DNA from: Cryobacterium sp. MP_M3
GTDB taxonomy: Bacteria; Actinomycetota; Actinomycetes; Actinomycetales; Microbacteriaceae
DNA: 64,000 nucleotides
Reading direction: 5' to 3'
NCBI RefSeq assembly: GCF_015752155.1
Contig: NZ_JADOVI010000016.1
Location: forward strand, 1-64,000
In this document: positions 10,323-20,895 of the stretch, one piece after another
Numbering within the stretch: position 1 is the first letter of the stretch
Layout of the letters: each line of letters begins with the position of its first letter
The notes under the pieces: generated by a model
What the model saw: only the letters and a program-made list of their open reading frames with translations
Databases searched by the model: none
What the model was told of the DNA's origin: nothing
Program-made: the position numbers and the translations under genes

Positions 10323-11783
10323 TCAGACGACGTCGGCGAGGTACCCGGTGTCCGGCACCGGATGCCGCAGCAGCGAATCCCAGGCCAGGCCGAGCACGTC
10401 GACGGCCAGGTCCATCTCGCCGGTGCTGTAACAGAACGGAATCCGCAGGAACCGTTCGAAGGCTCCGTCGAGCCCGAACCGCGGCCCGGCCGGCACGAGC
10501 AGGCCGTGGTTGCGCGCGGCGAGCGCGAGCTGGGAGCTCACCGGCAGCCCGAGGTTGACCCAGGCGGTGATGCCGCCGTCGACGTGCGGCACCTGCCAGT
10601 CGGGGAACCGCGCGGCGAGCAGCCGCTCCAGGTGGTCGCGGCCGATCCGGAGTTCGCTCCGGCGGCCCTCGAGGATCGCCGGCATCTCGGCCAGGAGGCG
10701 CACCACGATCAGTTGCTCGAGGATGGGCGTGCCCAGGTCGTTCGCCGACCTCGCGGCAACGAGCCGGCGGATCAGCGGCCGTTCAGCGCGAATCCAGCCC
10801 ACCCGCAGGCCGCCCCAGACGGTCTTGCCGACCGACCCGATGGCCACGACGTCGCCCGGCTGCCCAGGCTCGGCGTAGGCCGGGAAGGGCAGGAACTCGC
10901 CGGCCCGGTCGATGTCGAGTTCGGCGATCGTCTCGTCGACGACGAGCACCGTGCCCTGGCGGGCCGCGGCGGCCAGCACGCGCTCCCGCTGTTCGGCCGG
11001 CATGGTGCGGCCGGTCGGGTTGTGGAAGTCCGGCATCAGGTAACCGAGCACGGGGTTGCTGCGGCGGAGGGTCTGCAGGAGCGCGGTCTCGTCCCAGCCG
11101 GCGGTCGCGGCATCCTCGCCGGGCACGGCGGCCGACACGGTGACCGGCACGAGCCGGGCGCCCGCGGCGGTCAGCGCTTCGTAGGCGTGCGGGTAGGTGG
11201 GCATCTCGATCAGCACCCGGTCGCCGCGGCCGACCAGCACCCGGGCGAGCAGCGCGATCGCATGCTGGGCGCCGATCGTGACCATGATCTGTTCCGGGTC
11301 GGTGGGCAGCCCGCGGGCCCGGTACCGGTCGGCGATCGCGGCGCGAAGCTCCGGGATCCCGACGGGGTCGAAGCCGGAGCCGCCGAGCTGGCCGGGCAGG
11401 TCGCCCACGGCGGCCTGGGCGGCATCCGCGAGGCCGGCGAACGCCGGCATGGTGGCCTTGCTGAAGTCGAGGATGCCACCGGTGGCCGGCCCGGTGTGCG
11501 CCGCCGGCACCCCGGGCAGCCGCGCAAGGCTCCCTGAGCCGCGCACGCTGACCAGGAAGCCCGTGTCGCGCAGCCGGCGGTAGGCGGCCGTGACGGTCGT
11601 GCGGCTGACGCCGAGCCGCGCGCTGAGGTCGCGTTCGGCGGGCAGCCGGCTGTCGGTGGGGATGCGCCCGTCGAGGGTGAGCAGACGGATGCGGTCGGCC
11701 AGCGCCCGGTACGCGCTCCCGCCGTCGCGCCACTCCCCCAGCCTCGCCTCGAGGGCCCGCGCGCTCATCTGGTTCTCGACCAT
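10323..11783 (-). CDS. MocR-type regulator (GntR helix-turn-helix plus PLP aminotransferase-like domain), YczR-like
   Basis: 486 residues from ATG 11783; the open frame continues upstream through the divergent gene, but that part is non-coding shadow. Residues 20-90 are a GntR winged helix (DSRLPAERDLSARLGVSRTTVTAAYRRLRDTGFL). The rest is a fold-type I aminotransferase domain with MPDFHNPTGRTMP, VVDETIAELD and the PLP-lysine motif SVGKTVWGGLRVGW. MocR proteins use PLP as ligand cofactor. Divergence from a YczE-type membrane gene is the known arrangement of the YczR subgroup. A TATAGT box ending six bases before the ATG would give a leaderless mRNA. It probably controls yczE and itself. Confidence 0.9.
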   Translation of the reverse strand: MVENQMSARALEARLGEWRDGGSAYRALADRIRLLTLDGRIPTDSRLPAERDLSARLGVSRTTVTAAYRRLRDTGFLVSVRGSGSLARLPGVPAAHTGPATGGILDFSKATMPAFAGLADAAQAAVGDLPGQLGGSGFDPVGIPELRAAIADRYRARGLPTDPEQIMVTIGAQHAIALLARVLVGRGDRVLIEMPTYPHAYEALTAAGARLVPVTVSAAVPGEDAATAGWDETALLQTLRRSNPVLGYLMPDFHNPTGRTMPAEQRERVLAAAARQGTVLVVDETIAELDIDRAGEFLPFPAYAEPGQPGDVVAIGSVGKTVWGGLRVGWIRAERPLIRRLVAARSANDLGTPILEQLIVVRLLAEMPAILEGRRSELRIGRDHLERLLAARFPDWQVPHVDGGITAWVNLGLPVSSQLALAARNHGLLVPAGPRFGLDGAFERFLRIPFCYSTGEMDLAVDVLGLAWDSLLRHPVPDTGYLADVV

Positions 11784-11846
11784 GAGGCCACTATAGGGAG
11801 ATTGGCTACTTGATAACAGGCCAATAGTGCAATTGGATTGACGACT
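11784..11846. promoter_or_regulatory. Divergent promoter/operator region of yczR and yczE
   Basis: Holds ATTGG (11801-11805), CCAAT (11821-11825) and ATTGG (11832-11836). The first pair makes an inverted repeat centred near 11813, and the first and third are direct repeats. A minus-strand TATAGT (11790-11795) is a likely -10 for the regulator gene. Mixed direct and inverted half-sites suit MocR proteins. The site assignment is inference. Confidence 0.5.
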
Positions 11847-12521
11847 ATGACCCGTCGCCTCTCCCAACTGCTCATTGGCCTCTTTCTTTATGGCCTTGGG
11901 ATCGCGCTGATCGTGCGCGGCGAGATCGGCGTCGCCCCGTGGGACGTGCTCACCCAGGGCATCGACAGCCATACCCATCTGGGCTTCGGCCTGATCACGG
12001 TGCTGATGAGCGGCGTCGTGCTCCTGCTCTGGATCCCGATCCGGCAGAAGCCCGGCATCGGCACGGTGCTGAACGCCCTGCTGGTCGGGCCCTCCGCGGA
12101 CGTGGGCCTCTGGCTGATCCCGCCGGGCCAGGAGCTCTGGCTGCGCGTGATCTTCTTCGCGGCCGGGCTGCTCGTGCTGGCGGTCGCGACCGGCCTCTAC
12201 ATTGGCGCGCACTTCGGCCCCGGCCCCCGCGACGGCCTGATGACCGGCCTGCACAAGCGCACCGGCTGGCGGATCTGGGTGGTGCGCACCGGCATCGAGG
12301 TGGTCGTGCTGGGCGCCGGCTGGCTGCTCGGCGGAAACGTCGGCGTGGGCACGGTGCTCTTCGCGGTGCTCGTCGGCCCGCTCTGCAACTGGACGATCCC
12401 GTTCTTCGCGATCAAGCGCCCCGCCGAGGCGGAGGCCGTGCCCACGCACCCCGGCCTCGAAGAGGCTCTCGAGGGCTCCGCCGTCCCGTCCGAACCCTCG
12501 ATCGACAGCCCCGCCAACTGA
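11847..12521 (+). CDS. YczE/YitT-family integral membrane protein
   Basis: About 224 residues from ATG 11847 (a TTG at 11838 is also possible). Five or so hydrophobic segments: LLIGLFLYGLGIALIV, LITVLMSGVVLLLWIPI, VIFFAAGLLVLAVATGLYIG, WVVRTGIEVVVLGAGWLLGG and VLFAVLVGPLCNWTIPFF. Conserved loops GEIGVAPWDVLTQGI and GPGPRDGLMTGL are hallmarks of the YczE family, of unknown transport function. The C-terminal 30 residues are acidic and polar. It is divergent from its probable regulator, the MocR protein. Confidence 0.85.
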   Translation: MTRRLSQLLIGLFLYGLGIALIVRGEIGVAPWDVLTQGIDSHTHLGFGLITVLMSGVVLLLWIPIRQKPGIGTVLNALLVGPSADVGLWLIPPGQELWLRVIFFAAGLLVLAVATGLYIGAHFGPGPRDGLMTGLHKRTGWRIWVVRTGIEVVVLGAGWLLGGNVGVGTVLFAVLVGPLCNWTIPFFAIKRPAEAEAVPTHPGLEEALEGSAVPSEPSIDSPAN

Positions 12522-12630: not shown

Positions 12631-13419
12631 ATGTCCACCATCGACGTGAACAGCATCGAGCTGAGCGGTATCGACCTGAACAGCGACGTCGGAGAGTCCT
12701 TCGGCAACTGGAGCCTCGGCGACGACGCCGCCATCATCTCCTCGGTGTCGAGCGTGAACGTCGCGTGCGCGTTCCACGCCGGCGACCCGAGCACGATCAG
12801 GGCCACCTGCGCCGCGGCGGCCGCGGCACAGGTCACGGTCGGCGCGCATCCGGGCTACCGCGACCTCGCCGGCTTCGGCCGGCGCTTCATCGACATGGCC
12901 CCCGGCCACCTCACCGACGAGGTCATCTACCAGATCGGCGCGCTCCAGGCCCTGGCCGCGGTCGCCGGCACACGCGTCAGCTACGTGAAACCGCACGGCG
13001 CGCTCTACAACGCGATCGCGCACCACACCGTGCAGGCGCAGGCCGTGGTGGACGCCATCATGGCGGTCGATTCCGGCCTCCCGGTGATGGTGCTGCCGAA
13101 TTCCGAGATCCAGCGGCTCGCCGACGCGGCAGGGCTCCGCACGGTCGTCGAGGCGTTCGCCGACCGCGCCTACAACCCCGACGGGTCCCTGGCTTCGCGC
13201 AGCCTGCCCGGCGCCGTGATCGTCGACCCGGCCAGGGTCACCGAGCAGGCCCTCCGGCTGGCGGCCGATCGCCAGGTGCGGGCGGTCGACGGCACGTTCC
13301 TCGATGTGCCCGTCGAGAGCATCTGCCTGCACGGGGACACTCCCGGCGCGGTCGCCCTGGCCGCCCAGGTGCGCACTGCGCTGCAGGATGCCGGCATCCC
13401 GATCCGAAGCTTCGTCTAG
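12631..13419 (+). CDS. pxpA: 5-oxoprolinase subunit A (LamB/YcsF family)
   Basis: 262 residues. PxpA works with PxpB and PxpC to hydrolyse 5-oxoproline to glutamate with ATP. Family motifs are clear: [13 protein letters not shown] (19-31), [44 protein letters not shown], and a C-terminal [15 protein letters not shown]. The ATG has a purine-rich ribosome-binding site (GGAGGGGATAAGG). It is first in an operon with the fused PxpB-PxpC gene three bases downstream, then a biotin carboxylase and a GntR regulator. A palindromic operator lies 53-73 bases upstream of the start. Confidence 0.93.
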
Positions 13420-13422
13420 CCC

Positions 13423-15063
13423 GTGACGGGGTCGACTCGCGGCATCCGCGCCATCCGTGCCGTCGGCGATCGCGCCGTGCTGGTCGAACTGGACAGCCTC
13501 GCCGATGTGCTCGGCCTGCAGGCCCGGCTTCAGGAGGATCCGATCGACGGCCAGCTCGACGTGCTCGCGGCAGCCACGACCGTGCTCGTCACGGCCGTCT
13601 CCGCCGCGGCCGCCCGCGGGTTCGCCGCCGAGTTGCGAGGCCGCGACGTGACCCGGGCGCCGCACCCGGACACGACCCTCGTGCTGATCGACACCGTCTA
13701 TGACGGCGAGGACCTCGCCCTCGTCGCCGCCGAAACCGGCCTCAGTCAGGACGGGGTCATCGCCGCCCACACGGGCCAGACCTGGACCGCCGCGTTCGGC
13801 GGCTTCGCCCCCGGCTTCGTCTACCTGACCGGCGAGACCCCGGCGCTCGTCGCGCCCCGGCGCGCCGAGCCGCGCAGCGCGGTGCCCGCCGGGTCGGTCG
13901 CCCTCGCCGGCGACTACTCCGCCGTCTATCCACGGGCCTCCCCCGGCGGCTGGCAGCTGATCGGCCGCACGGATGCCCGGATGTGGGATCTCGACCGAGC
14001 CCGGCCTGCCCTCGTGCGGCCCGGCAACCGGGTGCGATTCCGTGCGGTGCGCGAGTTCGTCGTCGCGGCTGCGGGCTCGACGAACGCGGCAGTCGAGGCC
14101 GCGGAGGGCGAGCGGAGCCACGGGATCCTCGTGGTCTCCCCCGGCCTGCAGACCACCGTGCAGGACCTCGGCCGTCCCGGCTTCGCCGACCTCGGCGTGG
14201 CAAGCTCCGGCGCGCTCGACCGCGGCGCCCTCCGCCGGGCCAACCACATCGTCGGCAATCCGGCCACGGCCGCCGTGCTCGAGAACGCCCTCGGCGGGCT
14301 CGTCCTCACGGCAGAGACCGACCAGGTGCTGGCCGTCACGGGCGCGCCGATGAGCCTCACGGTCACGGCGCCCGGCATCACACCCGGCGGCACGCCCGGC
14401 ACTGCTCCCGTGCGCCGCGAGCCGCCGATGGACGCCCCCATCTCCCTGCTCGCGGGTGAGACGCTCACCCTCGGCCCGCCCCGCGCCGGGGTGCGCAGCT
14501 ACCTGGCCTTCCGCGGCGGGATCGACGTACCCCCGGTGCTCGGCAGCCGCTCCACCGACACCATGTCCGGGATCGGCCCGGCCCCGCTCGTCGCCGGCGA
14601 CCACCTCCGGATGCTTCCTGCCGCCCCCGGCAGCGCCGTGCACGGCCCCGAGATCCCGCCGGCCCCGCCGGCCGAGGTCACGGTGCTGCGCTTCGTGCCC
14701 GGGCCGCGCGCGGACTGGTTCGACGCGGCATCCGTCGCCCGGCTCGCCGAGAACGAGTGGGCGGTGAGCGCGCAATCGAACCGGATCGGCCTCCGTCTCG
14801 ACGGCGAGCCGCTCGTGCGGTCCAGGCCGGGTGAGCTCGCCAGCGAGGGCACCGTGAAGGGCGCCGTGCAGGTGCCGCCGTCGGGCCTGCCCGTCCTGTT
14901 CCTCGCCGACCACCCCGTCACGGGCGGCTATCCGGTGATCGGGGTCGTGCTGGCCGAGGACCTCGACCTGGCCGCCCAGCTGCCCACCGGCGCCCGCATC
15001 CGGTTCGACGCGGCACCCGGCGGCGCACCCTCGATCGTCCCCATCCCCGCAACGGAGAGCTGA
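13423..15063 (+). CDS. Fused 5-oxoprolinase subunits B and C (biotin-dependent carboxyltransferase-like)
   Basis: 546 residues, GTG start. Residues about 7-210 are the KipI/PxpB domain ([11 protein letters not shown]..., [42 protein letters not shown]). Residues about 228-540 are the KipA/PxpC domain ([72 protein letters not shown]). In E. coli these are two proteins; here they are joined as in urea-amidolyase-type enzymes. Both domains are related to carboxyltransferases of biotin enzymes, and a biotin carboxylase gene follows after four bases. The role is hydrolysis of 5-oxoproline with PxpA; whether biotin takes part is untested. Confidence 0.92.
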
Positions 15064-15067
15064 GACC

Positions 15068-16867
15068 ATGCAGAAAGTCCTGATTGCCAATCGCGGCGAG
15101 ATCGCGGTGCGCATCATCCGCGCCTGCGACGATGCCGGCCTCGAATCCGTCGCCGTGTATGCGGGGGTCGACGCCGACGCCCTGCACGTGAACGCCGCCA
15201 CCGAAGCCTGGGCACTGGGCGGGGACAGCCCGGCCGACAGCTACCTCAACGTGGCCAGGCTGCTCGACATCGCCCGCCGGTCGGGCGCCGACGCGGTGCA
15301 CCCCGGCTACGGCTTCCTCTCGGAGAACGCCGACTTCGCCCAGGCCGTGCTGGACGCCGGCCTGGTCTGGATCGGCCCGGCACCGGAGGCCATCCGGGTG
15401 CTCGGCAACAAGGTCTCGGCCAGGGAACTCGCGATCCGGGTCGGCGCTCCCCTCGTGGCCGGGTCGGAGGGCACCGTCGAAACGGCGGCCGACGTGCGCG
15501 CCTTCGCGATGGAGCACGGCCTCCCGGTCGCGATCAAGGCGGCCTTCGGCGGCGGCGGGCGCGGGCTCAAGGTGGTCTGGGACATGGATGCGATCGAGGA
15601 GTCCTTCGACTCGGCCGTGCGCGAGTCGACGGCCGCGTTCGGCCGCGGCGAATGCTTCGTCGAGCGCTTCCTGCACAAGCCCCGCCACGTCGAGGCGCAG
15701 ATCCTCGCCGACACCCGCGGCAACGTCATCGTCGTCGGCACCCGGGACTGCTCGCTGCAGCGCCGCAACCAGAAGCTCGTCGAGGAGGCGCCGGCGCCGT
15801 TCCTCACGTCCGCCCAGCGCGCGCAGATCTACACCTCGGCCAAGGCCATCTGCCGGGCTGCCGGCTACACCGGCGCGGGCACCGTCGAGTACCTGCTCGC
15901 CCAGGACGGCACCATCTCGTTCCTCGAGGTGAACACCCGGCTGCAGGTCGAGCATCCGATCACCGAGGAGACCAGCGGGATCGACCTCGTGCTCGCCCAG
16001 CTGACCATCGCAGCCGGCGGTCCACTTCCGGTGGCGGCCGACCCCGAGCCGCGCGGGCACTCCTTCGAGTTCCGGATCAACGCCGAGGATGTCGGGCGCG
16101 GGTTCCTGCCGTGCCCCGGCACCGTGGCGACGTTCACCGTGCCGACCGGGCCGGGCATCCGCGTCGACACGGGAGTGCGGGCCGGCGGCCTCGTCCCGGC
16201 CCAGTTCGACTCCCTGCTGGCCAAGCTCATCGTCACCGGGGCAGACCGCCAGCAGGCGCTCCGCCGCGCCCGGCGGGCCCTGGCCGAGTTCGAGATCACC
16301 GGCCTGCCGACGGTGCTGCCGTTCCACCGGGCCGTGGTGCGGGCACCGGCGTTCACCGGCACCGACCGGCTCGGCGTGCACACCGGCTGGATCCAGGCCG
16401 ACTTCACCGAGCAGCTGCCGAGCGACCCCCAGTTCAACCCGGCGGCCCCCGAGGCACCCCGCCACACCATCAGCATCGAGGTCGACGGCCGGCGGATGGC
16501 GCTCGGCCTGCCGGCGGGCCTGCTCGACGCGCTCGTGCGCGGTGCGAGGCCGGGAAACGGCCCAGCGGATGGCTCGGCGGCCGGTGCGTTCTCGGCCGAG
16601 GGCACGGCCGGCACCGCCACCGGCACAGGCAGCCCGGCGTCGCACGCCGACCCGAGCATCCTCAGCGCCACGATGGGCGGTTCGGTCGTGAAATGGCTGG
16701 TGGAACCCGGCACCGCGGTGACCGAGGGCGACCCGGTGCTCGTGCTCGAAGCCATGAAGATGGAGTCGATCGTGACGGCTCACCGCACCGGCATCCTGCG
16801 GAACCCGAGCGTGCACCCCGGCGACGCCGTGGCCGCGAACTCCGCCGTGGCCTCCATCGGCGACTGA
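15068..16867 (+). CDS. Biotin carboxylase with C-terminal biotinyl domain
   Basis: 599 residues. The N-terminal domain starts [23 protein letters not shown]-grasp motifs include [35 protein letters not shown] and [15 protein letters not shown]. Residues from about 520 are a biotinyl domain, with the acceptor lysine in [11 protein letters not shown] (about Lys564). Residues 495-525 are a Gly/Ala/Ser linker. The enzyme would carboxylate its own biotin using ATP and bicarbonate. It sits directly behind the PxpB-PxpC gene, which lacks a separate acyl-CoA carboxyltransferase partner, so its natural partner is probably that fused protein. A general acyl-CoA carboxylase role is the alternative and is less supported by position. 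Confidence 0.9.
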
Positions 16868-16968
16868 GCCGGACCCGCCCGCACCATGACGACCCGGAAC
16901 GGGACTGCCCTCAGCGGGACGGCCCGCAACGGGACTGCCCTGGACGCGCCAGCCCGTATCGTGGCAGC

Positions 16969-17673
16969 ATGACCCTCGCCGAGATCCTGGACGACCTCCG
17001 CCGCACCCGGGCGTCCGGCCTGCACGCCGAAACCGGCCTGTGGGTGGCCGGGGTGCTGCGCGAGCAGATCGCCGCCGGGAGGCTCGAGCCCGGCACCAAA
17101 CTGCCCGAGGAAACCCTGGGCGACGCGCTCGGAGTGTCCCGGAATACCCTGCGGGAGGCATTCTCCACCCTGAGCGCCGAGCGCGTGGTCACCAGGTTCC
17201 CCAACCGCGGGGTCTTCGTGTCCCGGCCGACGACCGACGATATCCGGGAGATCTACCGGGTGCGGCGCTATCTCGAGCCGGCCGCCGTGACCTGGACCCC
17301 CGCGGCCGATCTCGGCCCCGTCTGCCTCGCACCACTGGGCCAGGCGGTCGAACGGGCGCGCGCCGCCAGGGACGCCGGGTCGATCCCGGGCATGGCCGGG
17401 GCCAACCAGGACTTCCATGCCGGGATCGTGGCGCTGGCCGGCAGCGATCGCCTGGACCAGCTGATGAGCCAGGTGCTTGCCGAGATGCGCCTGGTCTTCC
17501 ATTCCATGGCCGAGAACGCGCTGTTCCACGCGCCCTACGTCGAGGAGAACGCCCGGATCGTGTCACTGCTCGCGGAGGGACGCCAGTCCGACGCCGCCAC
17601 CGTGCTGGCCGACTACCTCGTTCGCGCCGAGGCCCAGCTGCTCGCCGCCGTCGCCGCCCGCGCCGGCGGCTGA
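16969..17673 (+). CDS. GntR-family regulator, FCD type
   Basis: 234 residues from ATG 16969. The winged helix spans about 24-90 (LWVAGVLREQIAAGRLEPGTKLPEETLGDALGVSRNTLREAFSTL). The C-terminal helical FCD domain has the metal-ligand pattern D..FH (NQDFHAGIVALAGSDRL) and a later YVEENARIV histidine-poor helix. It is last gene on the plus strand of the 5-oxoproline cluster and probably represses it through the ATTGTT-N-AACAAT operators at 12557 and 19933. The ligand could be 5-oxoproline or a related acid; that is inference. No copy of the operator lies directly in front of this gene. Confidence 0.88.
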   Translation: MTLAEILDDLRRTRASGLHAETGLWVAGVLREQIAAGRLEPGTKLPEETLGDALGVSRNTLREAFSTLSAERVVTRFPNRGVFVSRPTTDDIREIYRVRRYLEPAAVTWTPAADLGPVCLAPLGQAVERARAARDAGSIPGMAGANQDFHAGIVALAGSDRLDQLMSQVLAEMRLVFHSMAENALFHAPYVEENARIVSLLAEGRQSDAATVLADYLVRAEAQLLAAVAARAGG

Positions 17674-17757
17674 TTCAGGAGATCCGACCCCAGGCTCCGC
17701 GCCGGGTCCCGGACCAGTGCGGTCGCCCGGCCGCGCGCGGAGAATCTCCTGAGTCAG
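17670..17757. terminator. Long inverted repeat between convergent genes
   Basis: Arms 17670-17684 and 17743-17757 match at 13 of 15 positions (core TCAGGAGAT / ATCTCCTGA), enclosing a GC-rich 58-base loop that can fold further. It sits between the stops of the convergent GntR and YcsI genes and could serve as a bidirectional terminator. There is no T-run. Confidence 0.5.
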
Positions 17758-17805
17758 GCACGACGCGACCCGATTGCTGCGGGATTGCGGCGGGATGACG
17801 CGCGG

Positions 17806-18603
17806 TTACGGCACGAGGTAGTCGGAGTCGCGGGCGTCCGTGATCAGCATGTGCCCGGGGGCGTGGCCGATCGCGAGGGGCGGCCGCGACTCCATCACCG
17901 CGGCCTGCGGGGTCACCCCGCAGGCCCAGAAGACGGGGATGTCCCCCGGCCGGAGCGAGACGGCCTCACCGAAGTCGGGCGCGGCCAGGTCGGCGATGCC
18001 GAGGCGTGCGGGGTCTCCGACGTGAACCGGGGCGCCGTGCACCGCCGGGTAGCGCGCGCTGATCCGCACCGCACCGGCCACCTGCTCGGGCGGGATCGGC
18101 CGCATCGAGACCACCAGTGGGCCACCGAGTGAGCCCGCCGCGGTGGATCGCACGTTCGTGCGGTACATCGGCACGTTCCGGCCCTGGTCGATGTGGGCCA
18201 CCGGGATGCCGCCGTCCTGCAGCGCGGCCTCGAAGGTGAAGCTGCAACCGAGGATGAACGTCACCAGGTCCGGTCGCCACCACTGCCCCAGGTCCGTCGG
18301 TTCGGCGACGAGCTCGCCGTGCTCGTAGACCGTGTAACGAGGCAGGTCGGTACGGATGTCCCCGCCGGCCAGCAGGGCACCGCTGGTCTCGCCCTCGTCC
18401 AGCACGCCGAGCACGGGACACGACTTCGGGTTCCGCTGGGCGAAGAGCAGCACGTCGAAGGCCTGCGCGCGCGGCACGATCAGGATGTTGGCCTGGGTGA
18501 AGCCCCGGGCCCAGCCGGCGGTCGGGGCGACGAGGCCGCCCCGGAAGTGCGCGCGGGCCGCCGCCGCGGTCAGGGTGGCCCGGTCCGGCGGGAGGGCGGG
18601 CAT
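17806..18603 (-). CDS. YcsI-type putative hydro-lyase (DUF1445, D-glutamate cyclase family)
   Basis: 265 residues. Family motifs include ANILIVPRAQAFDVLLFAQRNPKSCPVLGVLDEGE, FILGCSFTFEAALQDGGIPVAHIDQGRNVPMYRTN, VVSMRPIPPEQ and PVFWACGVTPQAAVMES. The family is related to vertebrate D-glutamate cyclase, which makes 5-oxo-D-proline; the bacterial members are annotated only as putative hydro-lyases. Next to 5-oxoprolinase genes, a role in producing or interconverting 5-oxoproline is plausible. It lies four bases behind the NRAMP-like gene on the same strand, as in the ycsF-ycsG-ycsI cluster of Bacillus subtilis. Confidence 0.88.
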   Translation of the reverse strand: MPALPPDRATLTAAAARAHFRGGLVAPTAGWARGFTQANILIVPRAQAFDVLLFAQRNPKSCPVLGVLDEGETSGALLAGGDIRTDLPRYTVYEHGELVAEPTDLGQWWRPDLVTFILGCSFTFEAALQDGGIPVAHIDQGRNVPMYRTNVRSTAAGSLGGPLVVSMRPIPPEQVAGAVRISARYPAVHGAPVHVGDPARLGIADLAAPDFGEAVSLRPGDIPVFWACGVTPQAAVMESRPPLAIGHAPGHMLITDARDSDYLVP

Positions 18604-18607
18604 CCGT

Positions 18608-19864
18608 CTACACCCAGAGCTTGGCGAGGCCGCCGAGCGACTGGTAACCGAGGAAGAGCGTGAGCAGCCACGCCAGCACCCCGATGGCCAGCAGCCACTT
18701 CGGGTAGACGTAGCCGCCGAGCAGGTCGCGGCGGCGCCACGCCACCCAGAGGATGACAGCGAAGCCCACGGGCAGGATCAGGCCGTTGATGGCCCCGGCC
18801 ATGATCAGCAGTGTCGCGGGCGCCTGCCCGAGGAGCGTGTAGACCACGGTCGACACGGCGATGAACGCACAGGTGGCGATGCTGCGGGTTCGCGGGGAGG
18901 TCCGCGGGGTGGTCACGAAGGAGATCGAGGTGTACGCGGCCCCGATCACGGAGGTGATCGACGCGGCCCAGAGCACGATGCCGAAGAGCCGCAGCCCGAT
19001 CTCGCCGGCCGCAGCCTGGAACGCCTCAGCCGGCTGGTTGTCGCTGGTCAGCGCGACCCCGCCGGCGACGACGCCGAGGATCGCGAGGAACAGCAGAACC
19101 CGGATCACGCCGGTGATGATGATGCCCAGGACCGAGCTGCGGGTGATCGCGGTGACGTTGTCACGACCAGAGACGCCGGCGTCGATCATCCGGTGCGCTC
19201 CGGCGTAGGTGATGTAGCCGCCGATGGTGCCGCCGATCAGCGTGGTGATGATGAGGAAGTCGACGCCGTCGGGGATGACCGCGTTCTTGAGGGCCAGGCC
19301 GAGGGGCGGATGCGACACGATCGCCACGTAGGCGATCAGCAGGATCATCACCGCGCCGAGCACGACGACGATCTTGTCGAGCGCGAGCCCCGCCTTCTTG
19401 CTCAGGAAGATCGCGATGGCGATCACGGCGGAGATGACGCCGCCGACCTTCGCGTCGACGCCGAACAGCACGTTGGCTCCCAGGCCGGTTCCCGCGATGT
19501 TGCCGATGTTGAAGACCAGCCCGCCGAGGCAGATCAGCGCGGCGAGAAACCAGCCCGAGCCGGGAAGGACGGTGTTGGCGAGTTCCTGGGCCCGCTTGCC
19601 GCTGACGCCGATGACCCGCCAGACGTTGAGCTGCACGGCGATGTCCACGAGGATCGAGACGAGGATGGCGAAGGCGAAGGCGGCGCCGAGCTGCACCGTG
19701 AAGCTGGTGGTCTGCACGATGAAGCCAGGCCCGACGGCGCTCGTCGCCATCAGGAACATCGCCCCGAGGAGGGCGCTTCGCTGGGTCTTCCGCCGCCCGG
19801 CCGGCTTCTCCGGGCGGGGGCCGGAGGGGCGTTTGGTTCGTGCGGGGCTCACGGTGGTAACCAT
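18608..19864 (-). CDS. NRAMP-family transporter, YcsG-like
   Basis: 418 residues from ATG 19864; an upstream in-frame start at 19912 adds 16 residues without a ribosome-binding site. About eleven membrane helices are visible, starting at ALLGAMFLMATSAVGPGFIVQTTSF, where classical metal-transporting NRAMPs have the DPGN motif. Here that position reads SAVGPGFI, so the canonical metal-binding Asp-Asn pair is missing and the substrate may not be a divalent metal. In Bacillus subtilis ycsG lies in the kip/ycs operon with the same partners. It probably imports a compound related to 5-oxoproline, though that is inference. An operator-bearing promoter lies 63-90 bases upstream. Confidence 0.85.
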   Translation of the reverse strand: MVTTVSPARTKRPSGPRPEKPAGRRKTQRSALLGAMFLMATSAVGPGFIVQTTSFTVQLGAAFAFAILVSILVDIAVQLNVWRVIGVSGKRAQELANTVLPGSGWFLAALICLGGLVFNIGNIAGTGLGANVLFGVDAKVGGVISAVIAIAIFLSKKAGLALDKIVVVLGAVMILLIAYVAIVSHPPLGLALKNAVIPDGVDFLIITTLIGGTIGGYITYAGAHRMIDAGVSGRDNVTAITRSSVLGIIITGVIRVLLFLAILGVVAGGVALTSDNQPAEAFQAAAGEIGLRLFGIVLWAASITSVIGAAYTSISFVTTPRTSPRTRSIATCAFIAVSTVVYTLLGQAPATLLIMAGAINGLILPVGFAVILWVAWRRRDLLGGYVYPKWLLAIGVLAWLLTLFLGYQSLGGLAKLWV

Positions 19865-19926
19865 CGGGCGCTCACTTCTCTGTGGGGGAATGCTGTCAGC
19901 ACCGGCGGCCACTGAGTTCGTGACAG

Positions 19927-20044: not shown

Positions 20045-20821
20045 CTAGGTCTCCTGCGACGGCCGCAGGTGTCGATCGGAGTAGACGACCATGGCGTCGC
20101 GCACGAATTCGGCGCCGCGAACCCCGCCGAAGTTGGCCGCGAACCGTTCGTCGGCGACGTACATCTCACCGAGCCCGACGAAGTATTCCCGGGTCGGTCC
20201 GGTCGTGCCGGCACCGGGCGTTCCCGGGATGCCGGCCAGCCAGTCGAACTGACGCCCGGCCAGCCGCTGGCCCTCCTCGCCCTCGGGGGCGAGGCCTCGC
20301 TCGGCGGCGGCCTGCCACTCGGCCGCGAGCTGCCGCTGCTCGTTCTGCCAGGCCGCCTTCTCGGCCGGGCTCTTCCTCGTCCACCAGGCGTCGCCGTCGG
20401 CATAGGCGGCCTTCCCCCAGCGTCCCTCGACCTCGTCCCGGTGGGCCGTGTGGTCGAAGCCGTCGAACATCTGCTCAGCCATGAGTTGTTCCTTTCTGTC
20501 CAGGGTGTCAATCGTGTTCTCGATGGAGCGAATCTGCCGGGCGAGCCTCACTCGCTCTTGGCGCAGCCAGTCGAGGTGGGCGGCCAGGGCGCGCGTCTCA
20601 TCCGTCTGCTCGTCGATCACCTCGCGAATGGCGAGGAGGCCGAGGCCGAGGTCGCGGAGCATGAGGATGCGCTGCAGCCGCACGAGCGCGCGCTCGTCGT
20701 AATAGCGGTAGCCGTTGGCGCCGATCCGGCTGGGCTCGAGCAGCCCGACCGTGCCGTAGTGGCGCAGCGTGCGGCTGGTGGTGTTCGCCAGTCGCGCGAT
20801 GTCCTGGATCGACCAGTCCAT
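20045..20821 (-). CDS. MerR-family regulator with TipAS domain
   Basis: 258 residues from ATG 20821, which has a strong ribosome-binding site (GGGAGG). Residues 1-70 are a MerR winged helix (WSIQDIARLANTTSRTLRHYGTVGLLEPSRIGANGYRYYDE), 75-110 a dimerisation coiled coil, and about 115-258 a TipAS antibiotic-recognition-type domain (MFDGFDHTAHRDEVEGRWG..., EYFVGLGEMYVADERFAANF). TipA proteins bind thiopeptide and other drugs and activate their own promoter. The gene has a matching 19-bp-spacer promoter. No target gene other than itself is adjacent. Confidence 0.92.
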   Translation of the reverse strand: MDWSIQDIARLANTTSRTLRHYGTVGLLEPSRIGANGYRYYDERALVRLQRILMLRDLGLGLLAIREVIDEQTDETRALAAHLDWLRQERVRLARQIRSIENTIDTLDRKEQLMAEQMFDGFDHTAHRDEVEGRWGKAAYADGDAWWTRKSPAEKAAWQNEQRQLAAEWQAAAERGLAPEGEEGQRLAGRQFDWLAGIPGTPGAGTTGPTREYFVGLGEMYVADERFAANFGGVRGAEFVRDAMVVYSDRHLRPSQET

Positions 20822-20864
20822 GGTGCCTCCCGTCGTGTCGAGTGTCTCGAATGCGTCGATTCCC

Positions 20865-20895
20865 ACCCTAGAACTTGACGCAGCGTCAATGTCAA
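20865..20895 (-). promoter_or_regulatory. MerR-type promoter with 19-bp spacer and palindromic operator
   Basis: On the minus strand TTGACA (20890-20895), a 19-bp spacer, then TAGGGT (20865-20870). The spacer contains the perfect palindrome TTGACG-CTG-CGTCAA (20875-20889). Over-long spacers with an operator between the hexamers are the hallmark of promoters activated by MerR proteins, so the downstream TipA-type gene is probably autoregulated. Confidence 0.8.

Follow-up and report, generated by a model that had tools for sequence, protein, structure and literature searches.

The prokaryotic 5-oxoprolinases of Escherichia coli, Bacillus subtilis and Corynebacterium glutamicum are built from PxpA, PxpB and PxpC, and in C. 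glutamicum these proteins are encoded as pxpTABC, together with a YcsG-type transporter and a GntR regulator (PMC13274462). The means by which ATP is coupled to the opening of the lactam ring is worded in the same source as an assumption, currently that PxpBC phosphorylates 5-oxoproline (PMC13274462). No report of a biotin dependence of prokaryotic PxpABC was found in the open-licence literature, and neither was a paper joining a biotin carboxylase (BC) to 5-oxoprolinase as a function. Here, we describe a stretch of 64,000 nucleotides from Cryobacterium sp. MP_M3 (NZ_JADOVI010000016.1, positions 1 to 64,000; hereafter the window), in which a PxpABC-like system is, by its domains, accompanied by a dedicated and intact-looking biotin carboxylase fused to a biotin carboxyl carrier protein domain (BC-BCCP). 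Unlike in the known systems, PxpB and PxpC are joined in one protein (PxpBC) that scores under the equivalog cut-offs, and a BC-BCCP gene of its own belongs to the cluster.

Other described systems resemble parts of this arrangement. Urea carboxylase of Kluyveromyces lactis (3VA7; within urea amidolyase, 5I8I) likewise combines BC, BCCP and a carboxyltransferase of CT_A_B and CT_C_D domains and has many core residues in common with PxpBC, but it is a single chain of the order BC-PxpC-PxpB-BCCP instead of two proteins, it uses a lysine as general base where PxpBC of the window has R146, and its partner is allophanate hydrolase rather than PxpA. The model of the single-chain enzyme, TIGR02712, gives 501.5 for the BC protein and 152.9 for PxpBC, both below its cut-off of 1303.85. 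AccA3, the alpha subunit of actinobacterial acyl-CoA carboxylases, has the same BC-linker-BCCP layout as the window protein, which, in contrast, is encoded with PxpABC and not with an AccD carboxyltransferase. The ATP-dependent caprolactamase CapAB, from an unrelated family, also needs ATP and bicarbonate for lactam opening, and one of the three mechanisms put forward for it involves a carboxylated lactam, but it is described as biotin-free, of actin-like ATPase fold and dissimilar to PxpABC (PMC8453981). In Lactiplantibacillus pentosus, an additional BC/BCCP pair and, listed apart from it, pxpB/pxpC are presented as special compared with relatives; the passages concerned do not join them (PMC12427679), and they possibly form one system.

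An earlier note on this DNA proposed that the 5-oxoprolinase reaction may pass through a carboxylated intermediate supplied by biotin. We lean towards this reading, in which PxpBC would carboxylate the nitrogen of 5-oxoproline in a biotin-dependent manner before PxpA opens the ring; the substrate, the transfer of the carboxyl group and the order of steps are what we infer. PxpBC and the adjacent BC-BCCP would together act as a biotin-dependent carboxylase of the urea carboxylase type, in which the BC domain would carboxylate biotin on K564 at the expense of ATP and bicarbonate, the biotinyl domain would swing to the active site of PxpB/PxpC, and PxpBC would pass the carboxyl group to the lactam nitrogen. 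PxpA would hydrolyse the activated ring to N-carboxyglutamate, which would lose CO2 to yield glutamate, and ATP would be spent by BC instead of being used to phosphorylate 5-oxoproline. In loci that lack a BC of their own, the enzyme could borrow an AccA3-type subunit from fatty-acid metabolism; YcsG would import the acid and the GntR protein would sense 5-oxoproline. Support for the mechanism comes from gene content, kept residues, recurrent linkage and the fact that no conventional partner is left for the BC.

PxpA, PxpBC and BC-BCCP lie head to tail (Table 1), with gaps of 3 nt between the first two genes and 4 nt between PxpBC and BC (15063/15068), the latter as noted earlier; the content listed then, namely PxpA, a fused PxpB-PxpC, a BC with biotinyl domain, YcsI and YcsG, is likewise borne out by domain matches. 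In BC-BCCP, 15 of 15 checked catalytic and biotin sites are present, namely sites for ATP, bicarbonate and biotin together with K564, the lysine that carries biotin, in the motif EAMKMES. The roles of these sites are those which we take to apply in E. coli AccC. With a BC active site, a biotinyl lysine and carboxyltransferase domains all found, the proteins would belong to the biotin-dependent carboxylases.

The host genome of 3.94 Mb contains PxpA as its sole PF03746 match and PxpBC as its sole CT_A_B match, and encodes a biotin ligase. Besides the window BC it has three further BC proteins, four in all: by eye, the one on contig 6 reads as a pyruvate carboxylase with its own transferase and the one on contig 2 as MCC-like, and the one on contig 7 is AccA3-like. 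A carboxyltransferase elsewhere in the genome that might serve the window BC was looked for, and two PF01039 proteins were found, one directly beside the BC of contig 2 and the other at a distance of about 6 kb from that of contig 7. As four BCs stand against two such carboxyltransferases, each near another BC, the window BC is therefore without a conventional partner left over. Judged by gene content, PxpBC is its nearest candidate partner; the sharing of an AccD remains compatible with these data.

The linkage was surveyed through CT_A_B, the domain of PxpC, which was present in 70 of 296 genomes of the phylum and in 50 of 100 genomes of the family. Hidden Markov models (HMMs) built from the window proteins were used to annotate 80 regions from whole genomes (47 family, 33 phylum), 12 plasmid regions and 80 named genome loci, the latter being the best-scoring 80 of at least 571, among which near relatives weigh heavily; the nearest named PxpBC relatives in this set are Cryobacterium proteins of 74-75% identity. 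From the family list, 47 of 57 places were pulled, with the window's own genome (G000), eight likely urea carboxylases (judged by long frames and high scores) and the second fragment of a gene excluded. From the phylum list, 33 of 85 places were pulled, plus G225 via the family list, with the genome groups f18 and f26 represented by 2 of 14 and 1 of 6 genomes. One locus without a PxpB match was dropped (L142), and a fused gene with a frame break was counted as split (L192).

Among fused PxpBC genes with at least 2.3 kb of downstream sequence, BC comes next in 82 of 96 loci, the window included (62/70 named, 4/5 plasmid and 16/21 whole-genome loci), or in 81 of 95 distinct ones, since L084 and L233 stand for the same locus. 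Wherever a fused locus has a BC (87 loci), the BC lies downstream on the same strand, at a median gap of 68 nt between HMM envelopes, and in 82 of the 87 the biotinyl domain is in the same frame. Among split PxpB/PxpC in the pulled whole-genome regions, BC is nearby in 5 of 57, all five of other layouts; the BC-less fraction is thus 52/57, or 51/56 without the urea-carboxylase-like L144. The statement that split PxpB/PxpC lack a BC holds for these regions, not for the phylum, as BC and CT_A_B lie no more than about 3 kb apart in at least 17 genomes (11 of f18 and 6 of f26), of which three were pulled. Co-occurrence at the genome level is little informative, with Biotin_carb_C in 68 of the 70 CT_A_B genomes vs 272 of 296 overall, and the CT_A_B genomes without it being G064 (62% complete) and G103 (94%).

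The linked BCs are also well preserved. All 15 sites are kept in 82 of 87, or in 82 of 84 when three degenerate copies (L082 and L084 = L233) are set aside; the other exceptions are L227, which ends at the contig end, and L158, on a contig of a metagenome-assembled genome, where the PxpB frame is broken, R291 is replaced by W and K564 was not found. Chance adjacency of PxpBC and BC is ruled out by the recurrent linkage together with the kept residues, and the same 82 of 87 rule out the BC as a mere scaffold in most members. Pairwise distances of PxpBC, PxpA and BC correlate (r = 0.83-0.87 over 83 loci, with 0 of 1000 permutations as high; BC vs PxpBC alone, r = 0.836), which tells that the genes move together, as those of any operon would.

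The operon is spread over Actinomycetota and Pseudomonadota, plasmids among them. The full unit of GntR, YcsG, PxpA, YcsI, PxpBC and BC-BCCP occurs in Pseudomonas species, in the rhizobial Ciceribacter lividus and on plasmids of Roseateles and Klebsiella pneumoniae, and reduced units, in which YcsG, YcsI or both are missing, are found in Paracidovorax, Variovorax, Xenorhabdus and Ketogulonicigenium. In a tree of PxpBC (142 rows, quick search), the fused proteins form a clade (support 99) of which 61 have a BC, 10 have none and 3 have a degenerate one, a pattern for which a single gain of the BC link followed by several losses is the probable explanation. Outside this clade, six sets in which PxpB and PxpC are apart, with BC and PxpA nearby (layout 2), are sister to urea carboxylase (99), and two more sets of this layout, L149 (Burkholderia) and L150 (Rhizobium etli), join the BC-less Klebsiella type (98); a further such case, L116, has a weaker placement. 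By these trees, BC was tied to PxpABC more than once and from different BC lineages, in at least two branches besides the fused clade.

The layout-2 sets deserve a remark of their own. In L085, L088, L114, L115, L151 and L154, PxpB/PxpC carry a lysine like that of urea carboxylase, with a BC nearby and in most also PxpA, and this group is the sister of urea carboxylase (99), perhaps close to its ancestral form. A layout-2 set is also carried by a haloarchaeal plasmid. A genome of the same genus as the window (G373) holds both types, a fused system of the window type and a set of PxpA, BC, PxpB and PxpC of the urea carboxylase sister type with the urea carboxylase lysine (L088 and L104).

The origin of the BC bears on the explanation that BC-BCCP is a spare AccA3 which serves housekeeping AccD carboxyltransferases and stands in the operon by accident. 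The window BC is 58% identical to AccA3 of its own genome and scores 728.8 bits to that of Mycobacterium smegmatis, and in a quick-search tree built from 92 BC domains, with 50 of the 88 linked BCs among them, the BCs of the fused layout and actinobacterial AccA3 form one group (99), in which a branch (99) separates AccA3 from the rest and the window group of 17 is the sister of AccA3 (97). The remaining operon BCs fall outside this pair, proteobacterial ones nest among actinobacterial ones, and the whole group excludes the BCs of urea carboxylase, pyruvate carboxylase, an MCC-like protein and the other pxp layouts. Operon BCs thus do not make up a single clade to the exclusion of AccA3, and the label 'operon' needs two changes on this tree, which is compatible both with one or two recruitments of AccA3 copies and with a descent of AccA3 from the operon BCs. 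A spare subunit would share this kinship, but the BC has moved along with PxpABC to Pseudomonas, Xenorhabdus, Comamonadaceae, a rhizobial genome and Klebsiella plasmids, the annotated neighbours in the three such plasmid loci that were read (where annotation is incomplete) include no conventional carboxyltransferase, and the family loci pulled have a BC-BCCP of the window kind only with fused PxpBC. We therefore regard an accidental neighbour as very improbable.

The kinship of PxpB and PxpC with carboxyltransferases, also put forward in the earlier note, is supported by the CT_C_D and CT_A_B domains and by a structural match to K. lactis urea amidolyase, and by domains PxpBC reads as a carboxyltransferase of the urea carboxylase type. 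The AlphaFold model of PxpBC (pLDDT 89.7) matches M. smegmatis MSMEG_0435/0436 (Z 39.3, 287 residues, 1.6 Å), Thermus TTHA0988 (Z 38.8, 466 residues, 2.4 Å) and E. coli YbgJK (Z 35.9, 279 residues, 1.8 Å), and its PxpC half matches 5I8I (Z 34.3, 301 residues, 1.9 Å); past these known relatives, the VIA-align and Foldseek lists held just small-domain or weak matches. A physical link between the two kinds of protein comes from PDB entry 9YX5, titled 'Structure of the long chain acyl-CoA carboxylase complex from Mycobacterium smegmatis with MSMEG_0435-MSMEG_0436 bound', whose chains include AccA3, MSMEG_0435 and MSMEG_0436. By its title and chain lists, this entry gives direct physical evidence for the ability of a PxpB/PxpC pair to bind an AccA3-bearing complex. 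No paper describing it was found in the open-licence literature.

Several observations weigh against biotin-dependent carboxylation. The contact in 9YX5 may be regulatory or incidental. No BC is found near 14 of the fused loci with at least 2.3 kb downstream, and in two separate lineages PxpABC stands beside a degenerate BC that has lost catalytic residues and the biotin domain (L082:8834-10339; L084, the same as L233, 6409-7938); in these natural loss-of-function cases PxpBC either borrows another BC or needs none. K1605, the proposed general base of urea carboxylase in K. lactis urea amidolyase (PMC5770610), aligns with R146 of window PxpBC, its place having been set by counting along the alignment, and the position is R in 160 of 160 canonical PxpB sequences and K in 3 of 3 urea carboxylases and 6 of 9 layout-2 proteins. 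The conserved core is the same for PxpBC with and without a BC neighbour. Positions that differ by BC linkage are mostly hydrophobic swaps, with few others such as 444 and P521, the latter being R in most split and in urea carboxylase proteins; in PxpA, 23 positions are conserved throughout the four classes compared, and at 13 others the majority residue differs. A BC-specific active site in PxpBC or PxpA that would mark a biotin class was sought among these conserved positions, and none was found. As far as alignments tell, BC linkage thus leaves no catalytic mark in either protein, and the shared core fits either case, that all members are biotin-dependent, some of them by borrowing, or that none is. 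Mixed PxpA, PxpB and PxpC of B. subtilis were reported by Niehaus in 2017 to reconstitute an ATP-dependent activity without a biotin protein.

In an alternative explanation, PxpBC would phosphorylate 5-oxoproline and PxpA would open the ring, with BC-BCCP being an accessory that tunes the reaction or makes it respond to bicarbonate or biotin status and delivers no carboxyl group. Phosphorylation is the assumption in print (PMC13274462), and active sites that are alike with and without a BC neighbour, degenerate BCs and the reported reconstitution all accord with it. However, there is no ATP-binding domain among the Pfam matches of PxpBC, the preservation of every ATP, bicarbonate and biotin site in 82 of 87 linked BCs is not obviously needed for an accessory role, and BC linkage recurs in separate branches; we hold this explanation to be unlikely. 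Of the claim from which we started, the pairing of PxpBC with a BC stands on recurrent linkage, kept residues, the lack of a leftover partner and 9YX5, whereas for the carboxylated intermediate the degenerate BCs, the BC-less loci and the replaced lysine count on the other side.

Biotin-dependent carboxylation might also extend beyond loci with a BC, such that 5-oxoprolinases of the PxpABC type would generally, or at least in all Actinomycetota, be biotin enzymes and the phosphorylation model would be wrong. PxpBC would then be a lactam N-carboxyltransferase that receives carboxybiotin from a dedicated BC-BCCP if the locus has one, and if not, from a housekeeping AccA3-type subunit; 9YX5 suggests an AccA3 supply for M. 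smegmatis, and urea carboxylase would have branched off from this machinery. The reported in-vitro reconstitution of the B. subtilis enzyme speaks against this general claim, which we consider doubtful.

Table 1. Genes of the 5-oxoprolinase cluster in the window, with the model matches on which each assignment is based
Gene product	Position	Strand	Matches and remarks
PxpA (LamB/YcsF family)	12631-13419	+	PF03746 (LamB_YcsF) 327 bits; NF003814 'PxpA' 353.8 (cut-off 226)
Fused PxpB-PxpC, one frame	13423-15063	+	CT_C_D 180 bits (aa 11-197); CT_A_B 279 bits (aa 257-529)
BC-BCCP	15068-16867	+	Biotin_carb_N, CPSase_L_D2, Biotin_carb_C, Biotin_lipoyl (Pfam); also NCBIfam; AccA3 relative
GntR/FCD regulator	about 16969-17673	+	PF00392 and PF07729; start set at an ATG
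YcsI, putative hydro-lyase, D-glutamate cyclase family	17806-18603	-	PF07286 (D-Glu_cyclase) 220 bits; NF003969 391.7 (cut-off 324)
YcsG/PxpT-like permease	18608-19864	-	PF01566 (Nramp) 86 bits; NF037982 28.2 (under cut-off 50)

The YcsG-YcsI pair is convergent to the PxpA-PxpBC-BC-GntR genes. For YcsG, an in-frame GTG at 19912 is a possible alternative start. At the places which we take to be those of the helix 1 motif DPGN and the second metal motif of Nramp transporters, YcsG has GPGF and AGAH, so the protein does indeed lack the metal motif, as had been noted; GPGF is present in 42 of 46 YcsG proteins found, DPGN in none, and four fit neither pattern. A sequence search of the PDB with YcsG returned nothing. 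For the B. subtilis protein, a role as Mn2+ importer was concluded (PMC10448178). In C. glutamicum, according to PMC13274462, the YcsG relative PxpT is required for growth on 5-oxoproline and the GntR repressor PxpR binds 5-oxoproline. Where YcsG is missing, its slot was scanned in four of seven gaps (L169 resembled L162, and the frame was unclear in L196 and L199): major facilitator superfamily permeases take it in L162:4630-5973, L220:3824-5113 and the BC-less L118:11188-12573, and a DUF979 protein, of a family also found in the Klebsiella chromosomal-type cluster, takes it in Photorhabdus (L205:3416-4429). A solute importer is favoured for YcsG because such genes replace it in its slot, and the earlier suggestion that it imports the acid thus gains support from this swap and from PxpT, being largely published already (PMC13274462).

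In the 87 fused loci with BC, YcsI is near in 39, YcsG is present in 43, and a GntR match above 100 bits in 74. The GntR gene between the two halves of the window cluster was absent from the earlier note, and by analogy to PxpR its product is likely responsive to 5-oxoproline. Short near-repeats (CGGGACTGCCC-like) lie at 16890-16950, in the interval that separates the stop of BC from the start of GntR. YcsI, which according to the earlier note may feed 5-oxoproline of either stereochemistry into the reaction, belongs to the D-glutamate cyclase family (PF07286) by both models, with 2PIF and 3DB9 as relatives of solved structure; D-glutamate cyclase activity, the conversion of D-glutamate to 5-oxo-D-proline, is in print for a mouse protein that has a second domain (PMC5339696).

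These neighbours also bear on the identity of the substrate. BC-BCCP and PxpBC could carboxylate another lactam, a ureide or an amide, with PxpA hydrolysing the product and 5-oxoproline not being the main substrate. PxpA scores well above the cut-off of its curated model, but PxpBC stays under those of the PxpB (TIGR00370, 116.9 vs 145.55) and PxpC equivalogs (NF045499, 188.6 vs 500), reaching only the broader domain model TIGR00724, '5-oxoprolinase/urea amidolyase family' (251.9 vs 230.2), and the fused clade is separate (99). In addition, the PxpA gene of B. subtilis, ycsF, is described as having first been related to lamB, a fungal gene for 2-pyrrolidinone utilisation (PMC3412718). Nevertheless, C. 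glutamicum uses a relative of YcsG and a GntR regulator for 5-oxoproline, the YcsI family is linked to it by name, and the DUF979 neighbour is common to the Photorhabdus operon of the window kind and the Klebsiella chromosomal-type cluster. A different main substrate is, in our judgement, distinctly unlikely.

Two further loci flank the cluster. At 10323-12521, outside it, lie a divergent MocR-like YczR regulator and the membrane protein YczE, both above NCBIfam cut-offs, and upstream of YcsG, at 20045-20866, lies a MerR regulator with a TipAS antibiotic-recognition domain.

If BC indeed pays the ATP, a widespread enzyme of damage repair and catabolism would join the biotin-dependent carboxylases, and these would gain a new type of substrate, the nitrogen of a lactam. 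Fatty-acid carboxylases would be linked to the recycling of 5-oxoproline, and the complex in 9YX5 would gain a function. Gene sets with an intact BC, a degenerate one or none beside the same PxpBC make the biotin question directly testable.

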